Part shown: positions 20,828 to 29,618 of the stretch, in pieces
Layout of the letters: each line of letters opens with the position of its first letter
How positions within the stretch are numbered: position 1 is the stretch's first letter
Source of the DNA: a virus
IMG/VR virus record: IMGVR_UViG_3300025131_000265
Span: 1 to 30,156 of that record
Reading direction: 5' to 3' (one strand)
Length of the DNA stretch: 30,156 nt
The notes under the pieces: model-generated
Database searches by the model: none
What the model was told of the DNA's origin: nothing
What the model saw: only the letters and a program-made list of their open reading frames with translations
Made by a program: the position numbers and the translations under genes

Positions 20828-21098
20828 TTAAAATTGATCTCTTTTCGTATGCAACACTGGGTAACTTTTTATTATCTGCTATTTTGCATAAAGAATTTGT
20901 AAACTTTTCCATAGTGGAATAAAAAAATCTTCCATTTACTGATGCTATCCATAATTTGTTATTTACTTTTTTCATATAAGCATTTACGTGCTCAGTTCGT
21001 ATCTCAATAATTTGAGTTTCTTCAGGTACTGGGTTATAAGTCCCATCAGCATATTTAAAATACCCAGTCATGAATATTATACAAAGAGAGTCTAGCAT
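20817..21098 (-). CDS. Hypothetical protein, 93 residues
   Basis: A small protein between helicase and polymerase. The ATG at 21098 shares its A with the helicase stop (TAATG); an alternative ATG at 21071 gives MTGYFKYADGTYNPVPEETQ. It has mixed strands and helices with a basic/aromatic middle (KLWIASVNGRFFYSTMEKF). No family is recognised. Its invariable coupling to two replication genes suggests a replisome accessory, which is inference. Confidence 0.5.
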   Translation of the reverse strand: MLDSLCIIFMTGYFKYADGTYNPVPEETQIIEIRTEHVNAYMKKVNNKLWIASVNGRFFYSTMEKFTNSLCKIADNKKLPSVAYEKRSILSDN

Positions 21099-22285
21099 TA
21101 TATCGAAGTTACCTTATTAATTTTAGTATCTACAGTTACTGGAAAATATAAGTGCTCACCACTAAGCTTATTCTTAGGTAGAGATATCATTCTCCAAGAT
21201 TTACCATCGTATTCTTCATTAGAACCAATGCCAATAATTAAGTCCATCTGGGCAGGCATTCCAGTATTTGAGAAATCTATATCACCCATCTCTAATCGCA
21301 GTTTATTCGTTCCCGAATCTCCCGCTTGGGTAACTCCAATAACTAAGATATCGTTCTTCTTAGCTAGATTTCTTGCAGATGTGGCGGCTATCTCCATCTG
21401 TTCTACCCTACTTTCTTTACCTACCCAAATGTTACGGAGTTGGTTGATTACAACAACATCAACCCCGTGATGATCGATTAGACTCTGTATATCCCTAAAA
21501 GTTCCTGGGGATAATGATTTAAGTATTAAATTATTGTAGCCTCGTTGTCTTACTACGTTCTCGACCTCATCAGGATTCTCAATAACATCTATTAAAGGTT
21601 TATCTGCTAACCTGCAAATTAACCTAGACATCGTTGATTTCGCTGGGTCTTCATTCTCTATAAATAATACTTTGTAGCCATCATGTAACAGACCACCGAC
21701 CATGTTTATAATAAATAATGACTTGCCCACCTCTGGTCTACCAAAGACAAGCACGTTATTCCCTCGCATTGCTCCACCCGTAGCTTGATGTAAAGCTTTG
21801 GGCCATAATTTTATTCTGTTCTGATTTTTTAATGATTCTACAATGTCACATATCTTAGCTCCCTCCAATAGACTTTCATCTTCATGATCTTCGTCAAAGG
21901 AAGATTCTACGTTTTTATATTCGTCCATTAGTTCGAGGACGCCAGCTCTTTGGTGAGTTAGCAATAATGATGATAGTTCTCGAGCTATAGAATCTTTTTT
22001 AACGGCAATAACTTCATTCAATAAATTTGCTGACGAGGTGGTTTCGTTCAGAGTCTTTAGAATATTTCTATACAAATCTATTTGTTTGGGAAGTTCTCGC
22101 TCAATACGTTTCTCAACTAACTCCAAGTCTACAAATGATACACTTGTATCGTTGTCATAAAAGTCACACACAATATCGTATATAAACTTAGCTGGGTCAG
22201 AGAAAGAGTCCTTAACATTTAGTTTCGATAACTTGTTAAAAGATTCTCTGTCTTTAATAATTGAAGATAATATTTTAGATTCCAT
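21098..22285 (-). CDS. DnaB/T7 gp4-type replicative DNA helicase
   Basis: A 395-residue RecA-fold helicase. The N-terminal 150 residues are helical, like the DnaB N-terminal and linker region. The motor domain begins near residue 162 with Walker A GRPEVGKS (182-189, K188), the ENED segment with the presumed catalytic Glu (E210/E212), a Walker B-like strand VDVVVINQL (275-283, Asn281 where Asp is normal) and the GVTQ motif with Q320. It lacks a primase domain, which is a separate gene upstream. No ribosome-binding site is visible before the ATG, which lies at the edge of a 100-base AT-rich tract. Confidence 0.88.
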   Translation of the reverse strand: MESKILSSIIKDRESFNKLSKLNVKDSFSDPAKFIYDIVCDFYDNDTSVSFVDLELVEKRIERELPKQIDLYRNILKTLNETTSSANLLNEVIAVKKDSIARELSSLLLTHQRAGVLELMDEYKNVESSFDEDHEDESLLEGAKICDIVESLKNQNRIKLWPKALHQATGGAMRGNNVLVFGRPEVGKSLFIINMVGGLLHDGYKVLFIENEDPAKSTMSRLICRLADKPLIDVIENPDEVENVVRQRGYNNLILKSLSPGTFRDIQSLIDHHGVDVVVINQLRNIWVGKESRVEQMEIAATSARNLAKKNDILVIGVTQAGDSGTNKLRLEMGDIDFSNTGMPAQMDLIIGIGSNEEYDGKSWRMISLPKNKLSGEHLYFPVTVDTKINKVTSI

Positions 22286-22417: not shown

Positions 22418-23260
22418 TCAATTTATTTTTATAAGATTGATAATTTTGTTTATTAATTCATCATTACCCATATCTTTTGGGTCTTTGTCAATAGATATTA
22501 CTTGACAAGAATTAAAAAACAAAGAATATCTCTGCTTAATTTTTAAGGCGTGTGCTGTTGCGTCATTATCTAATACAATAACTATATTTTTTCCTGAGAA
22601 AAATCTCATAGCATTTGTAGGTATAGAATTAGATAATAATGCTACGCATTGTACGTGCCTAGCTACTCGTATTGAACTTATTATATCTTCTACTAGTACA
22701 AATATACCGTCTACATTGTAATTATTACAATAAGGAAAACTTACATTATAGTAATTATTACTTCTATTAATCCAATAAGTTCTAGACTTAACTCCGTCAT
22801 ACTGTTTATTAGACAATTCTTTGTAGAAACGAGATACATATCCTTTAGTATCACCACTTTGTGATAATATAGGATATATTATTCTTTCGGTTTTATTACA
22901 CCATTTTATTTTATTTAATATAATCTCCTCATTAGTTAAGTTAAATTTATTCTGCAAATATAAAATTTGTTTTTCACCTAAATTAATAATGTGCGACTCA
23001 AAAGGGTATTCCTCAGATTTACGAACAATCGAGTTAACAGGAGTAAATCTACGATTGCTCCATTCTCCTAAATTACTGGGAATAAATCCCTTAGAGTCGC
23101 ACGCGACCCTAAAACATTTGTATAATAACCCATCTTCAATTTTGGTTACAGCAAAGTCTCCATTCTGTTTTAAACAGAAAGGACATTGAGCAGACCTAGT
23201 AGTCTCCCCAATCTCTAACTCAGAATTAAGGTGTGAAAGTTGTGTTCTATAATTAGGCAC
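22418..23260 (-). CDS. DNA primase, zinc finger plus TOPRIM (T7 gp4 N-terminal-like)
   Basis: A 280-residue primase that would lay RNA primers for lagging-strand synthesis. A four-Cys zinc ribbon (C26, C29, C49, C54) is followed by an RNA polymerase core and a TOPRIM subdomain with E191 (VLVEDII) and the D231/D233 pair (VLDNDA). Length equals the primase half of T7 gp4, here split from its helicase. The start is a GTG at 23260, overlapping the cyclotransferase gene by 8 bases with no strong ribosome-binding site, so it is probably coupled. It links the accessory cassette to the replication genes. Confidence 0.85.
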   Translation of the reverse strand: MPNYRTQLSHLNSELEIGETTRSAQCPFCLKQNGDFAVTKIEDGLLYKCFRVACDSKGFIPSNLGEWSNRRFTPVNSIVRKSEEYPFESHIINLGEKQILYLQNKFNLTNEEIILNKIKWCNKTERIIYPILSQSGDTKGYVSRFYKELSNKQYDGVKSRTYWINRSNNYYNVSFPYCNNYNVDGIFVLVEDIISSIRVARHVQCVALLSNSIPTNAMRFFSGKNIVIVLDNDATAHALKIKQRYSLFFNSCQVISIDKDPKDMGNDELINKIINLIKIN

Positions 23261-23675
23261 GATAATCTGTGCCAGCTATACCATATGCAGGGTCGTTGTA
23301 ACCATACCAAGTACCATTATCTACACTTTTTAATTCTCTCGTAGCAAGTTCATCAGGGATAAAGTAAGTCCAACAAGTGTGTTCTCTACCTGCTGAATCT
23401 AATATCGTAAATTGTTCTCTTGCATAAAAAGTTGGATATCCTTCTAAATAATCCACATTTTTGAAAGACTCATCATCTACGTCCCATATCTCACCATTAA
23501 TTTCTTGTGGTGTATTGTTACCTACTTCTATTAATGCAGGAAATGAACCCATACTAACCATTCTGAAATTATTAGACTTAGGTAATCTGCCTACACCACA
23601 AAATATACCATTTTTAATAAGGGCAAAGTTTGGTTGATGTTGCTTTAACGTACCATATACAAATATTTTATTCAT
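23253..23675 (-). CDS. Gamma-glutamylcyclotransferase / AIG2-like protein
   Basis: A 140-residue protein of the cyclotransferase fold. It starts with the hallmark VYGTLK (YGTL at residues 7-10), continues with GEIWDV (E62) and carries DYLEGYPTFYAREQF, whose E78 is the likely acid-base residue by family comparison. Such enzymes release 5-oxoproline from gamma-glutamyl amines or peptides. I chose the ATG at 23675, which has GGAGG six bases upstream and overlaps the ATP-grasp stop as ATGA; the longer frame starts at TTG. Beside ligases that make amide bonds, it may trim or recycle gamma-glutamyl products. Confidence 0.85.
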   Translation of the reverse strand: MNKIFVYGTLKQHQPNFALIKNGIFCGVGRLPKSNNFRMVSMGSFPALIEVGNNTPQEINGEIWDVDDESFKNVDYLEGYPTFYAREQFTILDSAGREHTCWTYFIPDELATRELKSVDNGTWYGYNDPAYGIAGTDYRA

Positions 23676-24430
23676 AATAACCTCCGTACCTGTTGACAAT
23701 ATAAATCTAAAGTAGTTCCCTCTAATGCTGGGGCAGTATTAACTTCATAAACAAATGCTTTTTGAGAAGATTCCTGCCAACCAACATCTACAGCTCCAAA
23801 ATCTAAATTCAATGTTTCAACTGCTAATAACGCCTGTTCCACAACATCTTGTGGTACAGCTATGTTCTTACTACCAAATATCCACCCATTATTATAATTT
23901 CTTATTTGAAAATTGTTGCCCTCACTACCATTTCGTAACATTTTTTTCTGCATATGTAGAACAGTACCCATAAAAATATGTATTCTGTATTCAGCAGATT
24001 TCTTTACATACCGTGTGTACAACGCACAATCTGGTAAATCATCTACGTTATTAACTAATTGAATACCTCGTCCACCACAACCACGCAATAATGTTCTGGC
24101 TACAGCAACCCTCTCGCCCTCAATCCATACCTTAGCACATGATTTTAAGGTAGTAAATGTAGGAATACGAACCTTGCCATGCATTAACTCAAAAGCAACC
24201 AATTTATTTTGTGCCTTAGCTACAGATTTAGGATTATTTACAAGTGTAATATTATCTTTCCACCAACTAGGTAATCTTGGATTACCCCAATTTATAATCA
24301 GATGATTATCGTAGTACGAGTAGTTACCCTTCTCACGTACACGTTTACATTTTAAGTCAGACAGCGAAAATGATAGTTCTCGTGCTGATTCAGAATATAA
24401 ATTGTATGGATATATTATAGGTCTAAGCAT
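23672..24430 (-). CDS. ATP-grasp ligase (RimK-like)
   Basis: A 252-residue ATP-grasp enzyme expected to activate a carboxylate as acyl phosphate and join it to an amine. Visible features are the Lys-rich nucleotide loop before a glycine loop (RTLLRGCGGRGIQLV, residues 112-126), the adenine-binding hinge YTRYVKK (138-144), EYR (147-149), metal-binding D215 in FGAVDVG, and EVN (229-231) followed by TAPALEG. The order fits RimK/D-Ala-D-Ala ligase-type enzymes that add amino acids to peptides. It overlaps both its neighbours. In phage amidoligase cassettes such a ligase accompanies GS-like ligases and an amidotransferase. Confidence 0.88.
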   Translation of the reverse strand: MLRPIIYPYNLYSESARELSFSLSDLKCKRVREKGNYSYYDNHLIINWGNPRLPSWWKDNITLVNNPKSVAKAQNKLVAFELMHGKVRIPTFTTLKSCAKVWIEGERVAVARTLLRGCGGRGIQLVNNVDDLPDCALYTRYVKKSAEYRIHIFMGTVLHMQKKMLRNGSEGNNFQIRNYNNGWIFGSKNIAVPQDVVEQALLAVETLNLDFGAVDVGWQESSQKAFVYEVNTAPALEGTTLDLYCQQVRRLL

Positions 24431-24926
24431 TGGCTAGTGACTCATTAGTAACATCTAATACTTCACATACTTGATAATGTGGATTAACTTTAACTTTGGT
24501 AAGATACTTAGTCCACAGCTGTACGTGAAATTGAGAATTAGGATTCTTGACAGCTAATCCATCAGTACTCCACTCATCCCACTCAGCAAATTCTCGCGTG
24601 AGAAATACTGCCCGATTATTGCCACGCATCTTAACATAATCCATTAATATAACAATGCCCGCACTCCAAGAACGCTTATGTCCGCCCTCGTTGATGTAAT
24701 CTCTGAGTCTAGTAAACGCCTCTAATTTGAGCTCTTTACTAATATTTCTGTAAGACATGGATGAGTAGTATCCTTCATCGCCAGTCTCTCTCCAACTAGC
24801 AATATGTATATCAGCTAATACCTGTCCACCACAACAACTACCAACCTTGCTATAGTCGTAGCCAACATAGTATTTTTTAATAATGCCATTTTCATCTGCG
24901 AAAGTAAATTTTACTTTGTCGTGCAT
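24423..24926 (-). CDS. Hypothetical protein of the amidoligase cassette, 167 residues
   Basis: I do not recognise this family. The protein has an early GSCCGG motif (residues 29-34), a charged middle and a C-terminal half with aromatic residues (REFAEWDEWSTDGLAV). The two adjacent Cys may bind metal or form a thiol centre. An AGGAG site lies seven bases before the ATG. It lies between the amidotransferase and the ATP-grasp genes and overlaps the latter by 8 bases, so it probably works with the cassette, perhaps as substrate or carrier. That role is inferred from location only. Confidence 0.5.
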   Translation of the reverse strand: MHDKVKFTFADENGIIKKYYVGYDYSKVGSCCGGQVLADIHIASWRETGDEGYYSSMSYRNISKELKLEAFTRLRDYINEGGHKRSWSAGIVILMDYVKMRGNNRAVFLTREFAEWDEWSTDGLAVKNPNSQFHVQLWTKYLTKVKVNPHYQVCEVLDVTNESLANA

Positions 24927-24944
24927 GATATTTCTCCTGTAATA

Positions 24945-26354
24945 TTAACTTGGGTTAACTGCTATATGTGAATCAAACTCGCCCGACTTGGAGCAGTCGT
25001 AACAAATTGGACGATTAGTATCAGTCCACTTAATTCTGGAATCATCTATAGAATTAATTGGACAAGAACAAGCCTCGCAACCATCTTCGGTTGCTTTTCT
25101 AAATACCTCGTAGTCAACATAGTGACCATTAACTAAATACTTTTGCCCCACGTCACCATTAAAATAAGCATCATCATCGTCGTCAAAGATATAATCATCA
25201 TATTCTTCAAGTTCTATTATGTTAGTAGGACTAAGCATTAGCGTGTACTTCAAAGTCCAATCATTTATTTTTTTATCTTCTGATAATCCTATTAGCCCAC
25301 TAGACATTATTGCTCCTTTCCTTGTAGGCAGATGAGATTTACAATAGTTATGAACCTTAATTTTACGGTGAGGCCAGTCGCATTGCTTGCCGAGCATACA
25401 CCCACGCTCAGGGCTATTGCCGTATGGCTCAAAGGATTCATAATTAAATTCAACTTCATCATGTTTTTGCATACTAACAGCACTAAACGGATTGTCATCT
25501 TTATTCTCAGGAAATAAATCATTTACCCCCTTACTAACGTAAGGAGAACAACTTCCATAATCATCGTCCCAATAATTATTGTAATAATGTGGGTATCTTC
25601 CTCTGTAAGCCTGATAAGTAGGTCTAACTGGCTGTCCATCATATATTTTCTTAGTCTCAAAATTTCTGTCTTTATCAAATGTTAATAATGTACCAACATT
25701 TAATGAGAATATCTTAGATAATTCTACCTCATTTCTTTTAGCCACAAAGTATAGTGCCTCAGCCTCGGATGCAAATAATATTACATCCTCATCTTTTACA
25801 ATACCAAAATGTAAAGGACGCTCAGTATTGCGTATAAAATGTAGCTTCCTTTTTTCTACATCATACCATACGATAGCAAAAGCACCCTGTATTTTAGTTA
25901 CAAAATCTTCTATAGAATTTTTACTCAAAGCTATAGCTAATGATTCGGAATCCACCTCGCAGTCTGTACCTTTCTTATCACCAAGCACACATATCTCATG
26001 CTTATTACCCACACTTCCATTATGAACCAATGTTATATGTTCACAAGTAAACGGATGTGCGTTCTCATCATTAACCTGTCCAGTAGTAGCGTACCTAGTA
26101 TGCCCAATAACATATTTATAATCATTAAAATCTTTCATCATTAATCCGAATTCATTAGTTTCTATATATTCTCCTGCACACATAGCACGTTTAAATATTT
26201 TAATAGGTTTGCTGTTATCTAATGGCACAGTAAACATACCTGTCGAGTGCTTGCCACGCAAAGATGTAGCTACTAATAAGTCTCTGAATAACTTTTTCTC
26301 TGTCAACCCAAGTTGCAGTTGTGATAAATTAATTACGCCTGTTATGCCACACAT
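24945..26354 (-). CDS. Class II glutamine amidotransferase with C-terminal zinc region
   Basis: A 469-residue protein whose N-terminal 235 residues form an Ntn-type glutaminase. Cys2 immediately follows Met and is the nucleophile; GHTRYATTG (R87), HNGSVGN (N112, G113) and D135 complete the pocket. It would release ammonia from glutamine for amide synthesis. Beyond residue 240 it departs from known amidotransferases: a Tyr/Asp-rich stretch (RYPHYYNNYWDDDYG), a first Cys/His cluster near 310-345, an acidic run (DDYIFDDDDDAYF), then a CxxCxC...CxxC zinc cluster near the end. No synthase domain is fused. GGAG seven bases upstream fits. It overlaps no neighbour but is three bases from the amidoligase. 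Confidence 0.9.
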   Translation of the reverse strand: MCGITGVINLSQLQLGLTEKKLFRDLLVATSLRGKHSTGMFTVPLDNSKPIKIFKRAMCAGEYIETNEFGLMMKDFNDYKYVIGHTRYATTGQVNDENAHPFTCEHITLVHNGSVGNKHEICVLGDKKGTDCEVDSESLAIALSKNSIEDFVTKIQGAFAIVWYDVEKRKLHFIRNTERPLHFGIVKDEDVILFASEAEALYFVAKRNEVELSKIFSLNVGTLLTFDKDRNFETKKIYDGQPVRPTYQAYRGRYPHYYNNYWDDDYGSCSPYVSKGVNDLFPENKDDNPFSAVSMQKHDEVEFNYESFEPYGNSPERGCMLGKQCDWPHRKIKVHNYCKSHLPTRKGAIMSSGLIGLSEDKKINDWTLKYTLMLSPTNIIELEEYDDYIFDDDDDAYFNGDVGQKYLVNGHYVDYEVFRKATEDGCEACSCPINSIDDSRIKWTDTNRPICYDCSKSGEFDSHIAVNPS

Positions 26355-26357
26355 ACA

Positions 26358-27566
26358 TTACTCCTCATCATAATATTCTTCTTCATCATAATCACGATCC
26401 TCCTCGTATCTCTCCTGCTCATCATAATCTTCTTCATCATCATAATGTTCTTGTATATCTCCAGTCTTATCATTAAAGAAATTTCCCATAGCATATCTAA
26501 ACGACTGCTTATTAATATCTCTGTCTATTCTTTGCATATATTTATTTAGTGGATAAGGAATTACGTACTCATCTACCTGTTCGGCAACGTCTGTTTCTCT
26601 GGGTAGTAGTATATTATTACTCCTAAAATAATCTATGCTACTTTCTTTCATGTTGTTATAAAGTAAAATATCCTGTGCTAATCTTATACCCTCAACTATA
26701 TCTGACTCACATTCATTGTAGTCTAGTATTCGATGATAGTTCTTAAATACTTTCTCTAGGTAATTTGAGATACCAAATCTAGATATTTCTCTGTGTAAAT
26801 TATTGGCAGAGTTACCAATACAATTTTTCTTCAAACACATAATTATATTAATCCACTCTTTGACACGCATCATATCATATGTGCCACCATGTAATCTAAA
26901 TTCTAGACTGCCATAAATGGAAGTAGCTTTTAAATTTAATGCACTATACTTAGGAAAACCATTTACGTACTTCTTAAAGTCCAAGTCCTTTTCTACTGAT
27001 GTTAATATATTAGATAGTGTACGTTTAAAATCATCAGACTTAGCGAAGGGCAAACAATATAAATTTTCTTTTCTATGTATACCGCAATAATTAAATAATA
27101 CATTTTCAAATATAGCGTAGTCAATGAGCAATCTAGCGTACTCGGTTTTATTTAAGTCAGTAACATCTAAATGTATATGTACGCTACATCTGTCTGATGC
27201 AATACTATTAGGTATAGTATTAGCTACAAGATATAAATTTAATTCGTTCAGAGCTACAGCTAAATCTTTACCAAATATTTTCTTAGTAACAAATTCAACT
27301 CCATCATTACGTAAACTGCCATCACTCTTTACATTCCAATACCCAGTACCAAATAATGTTCCTCTGGTCTCCCCGTCAAAACTAAAATATGGATTATCAG
27401 AGTTTCTACGTACTCCATTATGTACAAAATGACTAGCCTCTTTCATATTTTCTAACTCAACTTCTACACCAATAATACATCTTGGCAATACAAAATCACT
27501 AGACTGCTCATATGAAAATACGTTTCTATTTTTTTCGAATATTGAACCTATGTTATCTCTGGGCAT
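26358..27566 (-). CDS. Amidoligase, GS-like COOH-NH2 ligase (PF12224-like), with acidic tail
   Basis: A 402-residue protein with the glutamine synthetase-like amidoligase signature. IGVEVELE (residues 32-39, E35 and E37) is the first metal site. WNVKSDGSL and the following VEFVT (77-94) add the Lys, Asp and Glu91. SVHIHLD (128-134) supplies the paired His, and SLEFRLHGG (220-228) the arginine. Such enzymes form amide bonds at carboxylates with ATP. After about residue 350 the sequence becomes a low-complexity Asp/Glu/Tyr tail of some 30 residues to the C-terminus. GGAGG eight bases before the ATG; the start overlaps the upstream gene by 14 bases. It is one of two such ligases here. Confidence 0.85.
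   Translation of the reverse strand: MPRDNIGSIFEKNRNVFSYEQSSDFVLPRCIIGVEVELENMKEASHFVHNGVRRNSDNPYFSFDGETRGTLFGTGYWNVKSDGSLRNDGVEFVTKKIFGKDLAVALNELNLYLVANTIPNSIASDRCSVHIHLDVTDLNKTEYARLLIDYAIFENVLFNYCGIHRKENLYCLPFAKSDDFKRTLSNILTSVEKDLDFKKYVNGFPKYSALNLKATSIYGSLEFRLHGGTYDMMRVKEWINIIMCLKKNCIGNSANNLHREISRFGISNYLEKVFKNYHRILDYNECESDIVEGIRLAQDILLYNNMKESSIDYFRSNNILLPRETDVAEQVDEYVIPYPLNKYMQRIDRDINKQSFRYAMGNFFNDKTGDIQEHYDDEEDYDEQERYEEDRDYDEEEYYDEE
26361..26455. repeat. Low-complexity Asp/Glu/Tyr codon repeat
   Basis: The 3' end of the amidoligase gene reads as recurring TTCTTCATCATAAT-like units on the + strand, coding for an acidic tail made almost only of Asp, Glu and Tyr. The DNA-level repetition suggests growth by slippage. 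Confidence 0.55.
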
Positions 27567-28224
27567 TTAACATTCCTCCAATCTGAATATTTTCTAATTG
27601 TATTAAATCTATTAAGTCATTGTTTCCATTGAATAAATCTACTGTTGGGTACATTGAGTTATCTCTCATCTTACCCACTAATATATCTTTATATCCAAGA
27701 TAAATGCCCTCGCCGTTCCACGTGGAACTGATATATAAATCTTTTGATATAGCACCTGAGTATCTGTCTCCAGATGTAATCCTACTTATAGCACCACTAG
27801 CTGTGAAATAAGTTGGAAAAAACACTTCCCGTATAAACTTTGGTTTTCTTAAATCTTCATAATTAAATAGGGGCAGTTTAAATATTTCTTTTATGTCATG
27901 ATTCAATTGAGTTATGTTTACAACCCTCTCATTAAAAGATTGTCTGTATTGTTGTGTAGCAAATCTAGATAGTCTAACAACACCTTTCTTAGCATTTAAT
28001 AATCCCAAGCTAGGAAACTTAAAATCAATTTCAATATATTCTACTCTGTGCCTAGTTGGCAACCACTCATCATCATCTCCAATAATTGAACCTGAAATAT
28101 TGTTTCTATCTTCATCAATATCGTCAACATAAAATAAGTTAGGCTTTTTGTCATTTATATAGAGTAATACAGTACAGGTTCTATATCTCTGTCTAAAATC
28201 TCTCCTATCTTCTGTAATAATCAT
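27553..28224 (-). CDS. Hypothetical protein of the amidoligase cassette, 223 residues
   Basis: I recognise no family. It is a mixed alpha/beta protein with an acidic loop (DDIDEDRNNISGSIIGDDDE, residues about 34-53), a basic middle and a Gly-rich, Ile-rich C-terminal third. The ATG shares its A with the ligase stop (TAATG at 28224), and its stop lies 14 bases inside the next amidoligase gene. Tight coupling between two GS-like ligases suggests it forms a complex with them or is their substrate. No catalytic motif is visible. Confidence 0.5.
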   Translation of the reverse strand: MIITEDRRDFRQRYRTCTVLLYINDKKPNLFYVDDIDEDRNNISGSIIGDDDEWLPTRHRVEYIEIDFKFPSLGLLNAKKGVVRLSRFATQQYRQSFNERVVNITQLNHDIKEIFKLPLFNYEDLRKPKFIREVFFPTYFTASGAISRITSGDRYSGAISKDLYISSTWNGEGIYLGYKDILVGKMRDNSMYPTVDLFNGNNDLIDLIQLENIQIGGMLNAQR

Positions 28225-29063
28225 TATGAAGTCTCCAAAGTTGGCACACGTATACCATAATTTTCACATAAATCCCAAGCATCATCAACAAGACCACGAT
28301 TAATAATCTCTTGAAAAGTATCTTCTCCAACATCTGCTATTCTTCGCTCATACGTAGGTTGGTCATTATTTGGTAAGCAATGTAATAAGTCAGAAGTCAT
28401 TGCTTTTATCTGGTCAAATACCCACACTTTTATTCTATCGTTACTCAACCATATATTACTAGGAGTTCTATATTCAATTCCATATTCTTTTTGTCTAAAT
28501 GAACCTGCCTGACCATAAAATGATTTTCTCTGTGATGTTCCCTCTAATACTGTTAGTGGTAATCCAATATAATAATCGCATCCTTTAACTAGACTACTTC
28601 TAGCCATTGGATGAAAATTAGGCTCAGTTAATCCAACGTGTATATGACCGCCCGCAGTTCGTATATTATCTTTGTGTAATAATTTAGTGTTCACAACATT
28701 TTGTTGTAAAGAATATATATTATAGTCAGGATCGCAACCAAACTGTTTAGCTTGTTCAGACTTTAAAAACTCAGGCTCAAACTTTTGGAAGTCCATTACT
28801 TTATAATGTAGGTTATGCGATTTTATGATAGTTCTTAATGATTCCATTACATCATTAGTCCTATTTACAAATTGAGTACCAGTAGTGCATGGCTCAATAT
28901 TAAGTTCAGCCATGACATTATCTTCTTGCACCGCACCACCTTTGACTTCTCTAGGACATTGCTTGCTACCACCTACTAAGCCAACACTCGGATATGCGTT
29001 ATTATTCTCATCATATAAGAATAATTCAGCATCATGACCAACAGTTACTATTTGTTTCGGCAT
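28224..29063 (-). CDS. PhiEco32-like COOH-NH2 ligase, type 2
   Basis: A 279-residue GS-like amidoligase. VGHDAELFL (residues 8-16, D11 and E13) begins the active site, EDNVMAELNIEP (48-59 region) supplies further Glu residues (E53, E57), AGGHIHVG (137-144) the His pair and GIEYRTPSN (195-203) the Glu/Arg element. The layout fits the COOH-NH2 ligase type 2 family first noted in phage phiEco32. It would couple ATP hydrolysis to amide bond formation. I chose the ATG at 29063, preceded by GGGAG; the longer frame begins with TTG. The first enzyme of the cassette to be translated. Confidence 0.87.
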   Translation of the reverse strand: MPKQIVTVGHDAELFLYDENNNAYPSVGLVGGSKQCPREVKGGAVQEDNVMAELNIEPCTTGTQFVNRTNDVMESLRTIIKSHNLHYKVMDFQKFEPEFLKSEQAKQFGCDPDYNIYSLQQNVVNTKLLHKDNIRTAGGHIHVGLTEPNFHPMARSSLVKGCDYYIGLPLTVLEGTSQRKSFYGQAGSFRQKEYGIEYRTPSNIWLSNDRIKVWVFDQIKAMTSDLLHCLPNNDQPTYERRIADVGEDTFQEIINRGLVDDAWDLCENYGIRVPTLETS

Positions 29064-29065
29064 AA

Positions 29066-29395
29066 TTATATCTCCCAATCGAATGTAAAGTTTTGACCAT
29101 CACGTTTTAAAAGAATTTTTCCGTTACTAAAATGTATTTTAATAAGGGAATCATTAACTTTTATAAGATTAATATTACACTTGTTATTTTTATTTTTTGA
29201 TAATCCAAGTGCTAACAACATATCATCTAAGGTATAAACATCAGAATCAACTTGAATATTTAATTCCTTGCTTAATTCCTTATCCTGTTGTAGTTCAATA
29301 ATTGCAGGACAGTCAGGAGTGAAATCCTCAGATGTTTCTTTGACTACCTCTACAAACTTTTTTTGCTTACTACCAAATATTGGAAATAATGACAT
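29066..29395 (-). CDS. Hypothetical protein, 109 residues
   Basis: A small protein with GGAG seven bases before its ATG, ending two bases before the ligase start. It is acidic in the middle with a helix around residues 55-66 (YTLDDMLLALGLSKN) and a beta-rich C-terminus (INLIKVNDSLIKIHF). No family is recognised. It may be the first dedicated member of the cassette or an unrelated early protein. Confidence 0.5.
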   Translation of the reverse strand: MSLFPIFGSKQKKFVEVVKETSEDFTPDCPAIIELQQDKELSKELNIQVDSDVYTLDDMLLALGLSKNKNNKCNINLIKVNDSLIKIHFSNGKILLKRDGQNFTFDWEI

Positions 29396-29399
29396 AAGA

Positions 29400-29618
29400 T
29401 TACTCCTTATGTAGTTGTGGGTTATAATTGCTATAAAATCCGTGTACAGGGCTACGGCTTAATTCTCTCGGTAAGCCAAAGGAATCGCTAGGTTTTTTAG
29501 TGATTGTCGGAAATAATGATGATAGTTGTCCTTTATTCCGTACATATCTTCTAGGTGTTGCCTCATTAGAATAGGACTGCAATGACCTAGTCGTGCTACG
29601 CTTTCTATTCTTTGACAT
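29400..29618 (-). CDS. Small basic hypothetical protein, 72 residues
   Basis: An Arg/Ser-rich protein (KNRKRSTTRSLQSYSN at the N-terminus) with low predicted structure and a Pro/Tyr-rich end. GGGAGA lies before the ATG. The palindrome TTACAAGTGTAA at 29636-29647 sits 18 bases upstream, so this gene may have its own regulated start. The basic charge suggests nucleic acid binding; no motif is recognised. Confidence 0.5.
   Translation of the reverse strand: MSKNRKRSTTRSLQSYSNEATPRRYVRNKGQLSSLFPTITKKPSDSFGLPRELSRSPVHGFYSNYNPQLHKE

Follow-up and report, generated by a model that had tools for sequence, protein, structure and literature searches.

What does a phage make with two glutamine synthetase (GS)-like ligases, an ATP-grasp ligase, a class II glutamine amidotransferase and a gamma-glutamyl cyclotransferase encoded in a single block? 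The question is raised by seven minus-strand genes at positions 23253-29063 of the IMG/VR virus record IMGVR_UViG_3300025131_000265, whose 30,156 bases were analysed as a whole (hereafter the window; gene positions and strands are given in window numbering). Cassettes of this kind are already on record from phages like LUZ24, RIO-1 and phiEco32. The first-pass annotation of the window had called them computationally predicted pathways whose product is not known, and this holds: no cassette product published since the 2009 prediction was found in the literature searched. By surveying related cassettes, we find that a gamma-glutamyl-cleaving family, either the cyclotransferase or a Peptidase_C26 hydrolase, accompanies each complete cassette for which enough flanking DNA is available. 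This near-universal component, the links of the first ligase to the protein U1 and to Peptidase_C26, and a testable pathway are new here, relative to a body of compared literature that excludes the original prediction (Iyer 2009). The seven genes, in order of transcription, are the following.

LIG2, 28224-29063, minus strand: phiEco32-type COOH-NH2 ligase type 2, 279 residues, predicted GS-like fold (PF14395, phrog_3815)
U1, 27553-28224, minus strand: 223-residue protein between both ligases (phrog_11055)
AMD, 26358-27566, minus strand: Amidoligase_2, predicted second GS-like ligase, 402 residues (PF12224, phrog_7469)
GAT2, 24945-26354, minus strand: class II glutamine amidotransferase, 469 residues (PF13522, phrog_4736)
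u167, 24423-24926, minus strand: 167-residue protein specific to the close clade, with no Pfam or PHROG family
GRASP, 23672-24430, minus strand: RimK-like ATP-grasp ligase, 252 residues (phrog_2599)
GGCT, 23253-23675, minus strand: AIG2-like gamma-glutamyl cyclotransferase, 140 residues (PF06094)

A gamma-glutamyl-cleaving family in complete cassettes

The survey covered 320 viral contig stretches, seeded with the ATP-grasp ligase, LIG2, Peptidase_C26 (C26) and GGCT, and used profiles that we built ourselves; cassettes with LIG2, AMD, GAT2 and GRASP were taken as complete (n = 167, non-redundant), and in all 167 the genes lie on one strand. Among the 68 non-redundant complete cassettes obtained from seeds neutral to GGCT and C26 and flanked by at least 3 kb on each side, GGCT alone is found in 27, C26 alone in 22, both in 18 and neither in one. 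This sole exception, from Salmonella phage 7-11, has its GGCT gene at 55539-55919 of its own record, 4.3 kb past the ATP-grasp gene and beyond the analysed stretch. Independence, with relatedness ignored, would leave 9.5 of the 68 without both enzymes, as against the one observed. In and around cassettes, 1008 kb contain 112 matches to the two families, against 4 in the 652 kb lying farther away. GGCT has undergone at least 17 changes and C26 at least 8 on a tree built from LIG2 and AMD, and the pattern is therefore not that of one frozen ancestor.

The hydrolase goes with LIG2, being present in 92 of 132 LIG2 cassettes versus 0 of 14 LIG2-less ones, and its catalytic Cys, His and Glu are kept in 120/123, 121/122 and 122/122 relatives, respectively. 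Reference cassettes without GGCT (PA11, T5S1, IME234 and Klyazma) hold a Peptidase_C26 above the Pfam cut-off; at the level of records, PA11 as a whole has C26 and no GGCT, phiEco32, tf and 7-11 have GGCT and no C26, and C26 was not found in the window record.

It could be argued that the C26 proteins are ammonia-supplying glutaminases and GGCT a separate housekeeping enzyme, such that their shared presence would be uninformative about gamma-glutamyl chemistry, and PF00117, the class I glutamine amidotransferase profile, does indeed match the C26 proteins. Their score on Peptidase_C26 is the higher one, however, and their best matches in the Protein Data Bank (PDB) are Lin1909, 7d4r/7d50/7d53 (named probable glutamine amidotransferase) and PuuD, all ahead of carbamoyl-phosphate synthase; moreover, the cassette already has a glutaminase in GAT2, and GGCT is concentrated in cassettes. 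We regard this explanation as quite improbable. Gamma-glutamyl bonds are the target of both GGCT and Peptidase_C26, although the two have unrelated folds. Because two different folds are thus expected to cut the same kind of bond, the cassette probably makes a gamma-glutamyl amide that is cleaved afterwards. The earlier suggestion of a cyclotransferase that trims or recycles a gamma-glutamyl chain is strengthened by the presence of a cleaving family in every adequately flanked complete cassette.

Also in favour of such chemistry, LIG2 stands beside C26, with GGCT downstream and no AMD or GAT2, in two contigs from metagenome-assembled genomes (MAGs) labelled Stahlbacteria and Geobacteraceae and possibly viral (L348:5174-10066 and L351:953-4571). 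This minimal form may be easier to study.

Enzyme families, active sites and selection

The five enzyme families are as the first-pass annotation had named them, four above their Pfam cut-offs and the ATP-grasp ligase by its PHROG family. LIG2 scores 52.4 bits against a PF14395 cut-off of 25 (E 5.9e-14; phrog_3815, E 4.3e-63), AMD 39.1 bits against 22 for PF12224 (E 1e-9; phrog_7469, E 6.6e-52), and GAT2, whose N-terminus reads MCGI, 67.3 bits against 27 for PF13522 (E 1.7e-18; phrog_4736, E 3.9e-75). GGCT matches PF06094 (GGACT) at 77 bits (E 2.4e-21), and its nearest PDB sequences are YtfP and AIG2-like domain protein 1. GRASP belongs to phrog_2599 (E 6e-68); its best Pfam match is below cut-off (R2K_2, E 0.003) and its nearest PDB sequences are the alpha-L-glutamate ligases/RimK 7qys, 5zct and 4iwx.

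Alignment of roughly 120-200 relatives per family reveals that most catalytic residues are conserved at about 92-100%. The kept motifs include the GS-like acidic, histidine and arginine residues and the ATP-grasp Lys, Glu, Asp and Asn; the metal and catalytic motif residues of AMD are near invariant, Cys2, Arg87, Asn112 and Gly113 of GAT2 are kept in all aligned relatives, and the catalytic Glu79 of GGCT is kept in 116/119. Looser positions are Arg86 of AMD (80%) and Asn178 of the ATP-grasp ligase (78%). Scattered genes with decayed active sites, which the first-pass annotation had named as evidence that would count against it, are not what the 167 one-stranded cassettes present. Against the close relatives L019, L022-L024 and L026, the ratio of nonsynonymous to synonymous substitution rates (dN/dS) is about 0.07-0.35 for the seven genes, and values against L108 are similar, except that U1 reaches 0.40 and that of u167 is undefined. 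Because the block is kept in related contigs, evolves at these ratios and shares its distribution across phage records, the cassette is not a product of chance.

Several further features of these genes deserve mention. The block from primase to LIG2 (22418-29063) mostly shows synonymous divergence (dS) of about 0.7-2.7 from L108, L024 and L022, versus about 0.5 for the DNA polymerase, and L108 is 54% identical to the window in LIG2 and 89% in PolA; that the cassette is more diverged than the polymerase suggests its exchange by recombination. The C-terminal tail of AMD is strongly acidic and rich in tyrosine (window 26358-26450, DDEEDYDEQERYEEDRDYDEEEYYDEE); most reference phages lack it. The C-terminal part of GAT2 (window 24945-25100) is cysteine-rich and zinc-ribbon-like; its Cys 429 and 451 are kept in most reference phages, and the phiEco32-like forms hold several more cysteines.

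LIG2, U1 and the small proteins

The AlphaFold model of LIG2 has a predicted local distance difference test (pLDDT) score of 95, and its best Foldseek matches in the PDB are glutamine synthetases (best E 6.6e-6), in a list that includes gamma-glutamylmethylamide synthetase, 1-naphthylamine GS and plant glutamate-cysteine ligase. Because the template modelling (TM) score by query is only about 0.4, with large gaps, the likeness to glutamine synthetases is at fold level only; judged by its model, LIG2 belongs to the GS-like fold, with ligase activity predicted.

U1 matches phrog_11055, which is annotated as unknown (E 1e-7), with a profile match of 152.8 bits after iterating on relatives. Its sequence is poorly conserved. 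A tblastn search of phage records with U1 and u167 returned nothing, and relatives of U1 were reached only with profiles. Its AlphaFold model (pLDDT 92) has 11 matches among phage proteins, including one encoded by the cassette phage CW02, and against the PDB gives no full-length match, the best being a partial one to a small beta-barrel (E 0.048). A sequence search of the PDB with AMD, LIG2 and U1 found no relative. Of 132 sufficiently flanked LIG2 cassettes, 119 have U1; no U1 match was obtained in the remaining 13, most of which share a separate layout. U1 occurs without LIG2 in only two cases, both at contig ends. From this distribution and from the fold comparison, we infer that U1 may be a phage-only partner of LIG2, and LIG2 with U1 is the pair that we would single out for biochemistry.

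The remaining protein of the block, u167, has no significant Pfam or PHROG match and no match among phage records, and is confined to the window and its close relatives. Two small genes 5' of LIG2 (window 29066-29395 and 29400-29618, encoding 109 and 72 residues) are likewise restricted to the close clade and evolve faster (dN/dS up to 0.45). All three were considered as core members and rejected, as they occur in close relatives only. Of the seven-gene cassette first described, then, the seven tightly packed genes stand (from a 14-base overlap to an 18-base gap, all on the minus strand), but u167 is not a core member.

Distribution, genomic setting and rival explanations

Phage-record matches number 317 for LIG2, 331 for AMD and 339 for GAT2, with nearly identical genus tallies, and the commonest adjacencies are U1-AMD (150) and LIG2-U1 (145). 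Reduced forms without LIG2 also occur (AMD-GAT2-GGCT and AMD-GAT2-GRASP). A search of 84,980 species genomes of bacteria and archaea yielded only 13 relatives of LIG2, all of them in MAGs, a rarity consistent with a phage-borne gene. In the window the cassette is followed by two context genes.

Primase, 22418-23260, minus strand: Toprim-like (phrog_47, E 1.6e-17), overlapping GGCT by 8 bases
Helicase, 21098-22285, minus strand: DnaB-like (PF03796, E 1e-8)

Because the cassette continues unbroken into these genes, position 23253 is not an operon boundary. The window also encodes a family A DNA polymerase, a phage endonuclease I, a B12-type ribonucleotide reductase and structural genes. Across the 167 complete cassettes, a helicase family lies within 4.5 kb in 126, a DNA polymerase is nearby in 89 and a sigma factor in 50; the neighbours were named by reading representative sequences, among which no cell-wall enzyme was recognised in the recurrent families. 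In 93 of the 167 complete cassettes, and in 76 of the 125 with 3 kb flanks, there is also a protein family without annotation, about 300 residues long, whose genes mostly lie immediately 5' of C26 or LIG2 (for example L180:5898-6851, L011:3381-4262 and L010:4391-5872); RIO-1_7 and gp106/gp107 of 7-11 are members, and the window, tf and LUZ24 stretches lack it.

This setting bears on the published interpretation, according to which unusual amide links in cell-wall peptides shut out superinfecting phages. In its favour, cell-wall precursors hold a gamma-D-glutamyl bond. No supporting experiment was found in the literature searched, and the genes that recur beside cassettes encode helicase, DNA polymerase and sigma factor rather than cell-wall enzymes. 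In phage PaP3 the cassette homologues fall within ORF32-48 (the ligase and amidotransferase correspond to p48 to p45), a set of middle genes that peak at 10-30 min together with the polymerase and primase/helicase (PMC4707531), which is late for exclusion. The timing and the replication-type neighbours weaken the superinfection idea, and we consider it doubtful.

Alternatively, the RimK-like and GS-like ligases may put amide-linked residues on a protein of the host or phage, for example RNA polymerase or a ribosomal protein, with GGCT or C26 editing the tag. The nearest solved relatives of GRASP are RimK-type glutamate ligases, and among those of GGCT is human AIG2-like domain protein 1, an enzyme that cleaves gamma-glutamyl-lysine isopeptides. 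No candidate substrate protein is common to all cassettes; the nearest, U1, has no match in one cassette layout and is poorly conserved in sequence. Protein tagging is, in our view, unlikely. Least probable of all is nitrogen salvage, in which auxiliary metabolic genes would channel glutamine nitrogen into host or phage amino acids, as the genes of the ZRK32 Planctomycetes phage have been read (PMC10945688): the growth effect published there came from the whole phage and not from the cassette, hosts already have ordinary glutamine metabolism, and the strict association of several ligases with U1 and with a family cleaving gamma-glutamyl bonds suggests a single dedicated product.

A proposed gamma-glutamyl pathway

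We propose instead a cytoplasmic pathway, encoded by the cassette, that forms amides by way of a gamma-glutamyl amide, and assign it a probability of roughly one half. In this pathway LIG2, with U1 as its partner, would couple an amine to the gamma-carboxyl of glutamate or of a close analogue; further amide bonds would come from AMD and from the RimK-like ATP-grasp ligase; GAT2 would provide ammonia from glutamine; and GGCT, or in other phages the PuuD-type Peptidase_C26 hydrolase, would take off the gamma-glutamyl group. PuuA/PuuD and BtrJ/BtrG are pairs of enzymes that add a glutamyl group and then remove it, and the removal step is proposed by analogy with them. What the sequences show is the family assignments, the intact active sites, the operon, the joint occurrence of the genes and the ever-present gamma-glutamyl-cleaving family, from which the individual reactions, their order and the gamma-glutamyl link are inferred. 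As a first guess, the acceptor would be a small amine metabolite made alongside DNA replication, which we rank above a cell-wall precursor or a protein. A fuller scheme is more tentative and, in our view, somewhat less likely than not: a protect-build-deprotect sequence dedicated to the phage, in which a gamma-glutamylated intermediate would lead, while DNA is being replicated, to a specific amide product, U1 would be a partner of the GS-like ligase with a fold confined to phages, and either of two unrelated enzymes would carry out deprotection, depending on lineage.

Several points weigh against the proposed pathway. Strict mutual exclusion of GGCT and C26, hinted at by the first reference phages, was rejected because both occur in 18 of the 68 cassettes, and a tree-based pair test of reciprocal replacement was not significant; the expected figure of 9.5 takes no account of relatedness. 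The resemblance of C26 to class I glutaminases (PF00117) means that it could supply ammonia, GGCT could be a clean-up enzyme, and a substrate does not follow from a family name alone. In the literature searched, no product, substrate or phenotype is on record for the cassette.

Overall, the interpretation given in the first-pass annotation is partly supported. If the proposed pathway is correct, it accounts for a widespread gene set that has been labelled peptidoglycan modification by analogy only. More than 300 sequenced phage records match the ligase families, including Escherichia coli and Pseudomonas phages considered for therapy, and the constant gamma-glutamyl-cleaving family provides a concrete chemical hypothesis and points to the gene whose loss should cause an intermediate to pile up.

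Comparison with known systems

In its way of working the cassette resembles the PuuA/PuuD gamma-glutamyl-polyamine pathway, where the glutamate that a GS-fold ligase has attached in a gamma-glutamyl amide is taken off again by a Peptidase_C26 hydrolase. The cassette is not a member of that system: it is phage-borne, combines two GS-like ligases with an ATP-grasp ligase and GAT2, and is without the oxidoreductase steps, no Puu-type oxidoreductase or dehydrogenase being found in the scanned genes of the window or in the listed frequent neighbours of cassettes.

Among phages, PA11, Vibrio IME234 and Klebsiella Klyazma share the five-protein core of LIG2, U1, AMD, GAT2 and ATP-grasp but differ in having Peptidase_C26 upstream, with GGCT not detected in the stretches read. 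The RIO1-like phages PSA-HP1 and RIO-1 carry a "seven-gene peptidoglycan modification cassette" that likewise has seven genes and matches the window in its enzymes, in a different order: GGCT and GAT2 come first and ATP-grasp last. In phiEco32 and Salmonella phage 7-11 the core order is that of the window (LIG2, U1, AMD, GAT2, ATP-grasp), whereas GAT2 is much longer and GGCT is set apart by small genes, by about 4 kb in 7-11; in the phiEco32-like vB_EcoP_SU10, proteomics detected the ATP-grasp enzyme, the glutamine amidotransferase and a YtfP-like protein among the early products (PMC4281155).

The LUZ24-like phages (LUZ24, tf, PaP3 and UFV-P2) share the gene order of the window, with LIG2, a U1-like protein, AMD, GAT2, ATP-grasp and GGCT followed by primase/helicase (for UFV-P2, PMC3890496). 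They differ from the window in protein sequence (about 19-36% identity) and in a small protein of about 70 residues at the place of u167, and tf and LUZ24 have genes of about 300 residues upstream of LIG2, of which none is seen in the 1.1 kb that remain upstream in the window. Judged on its sequence, with LIG2, U1, AMD, a GAT2 bearing Cys2, ATP-grasp and GGCT, the window cassette is of the phiEco32/LUZ24 type.

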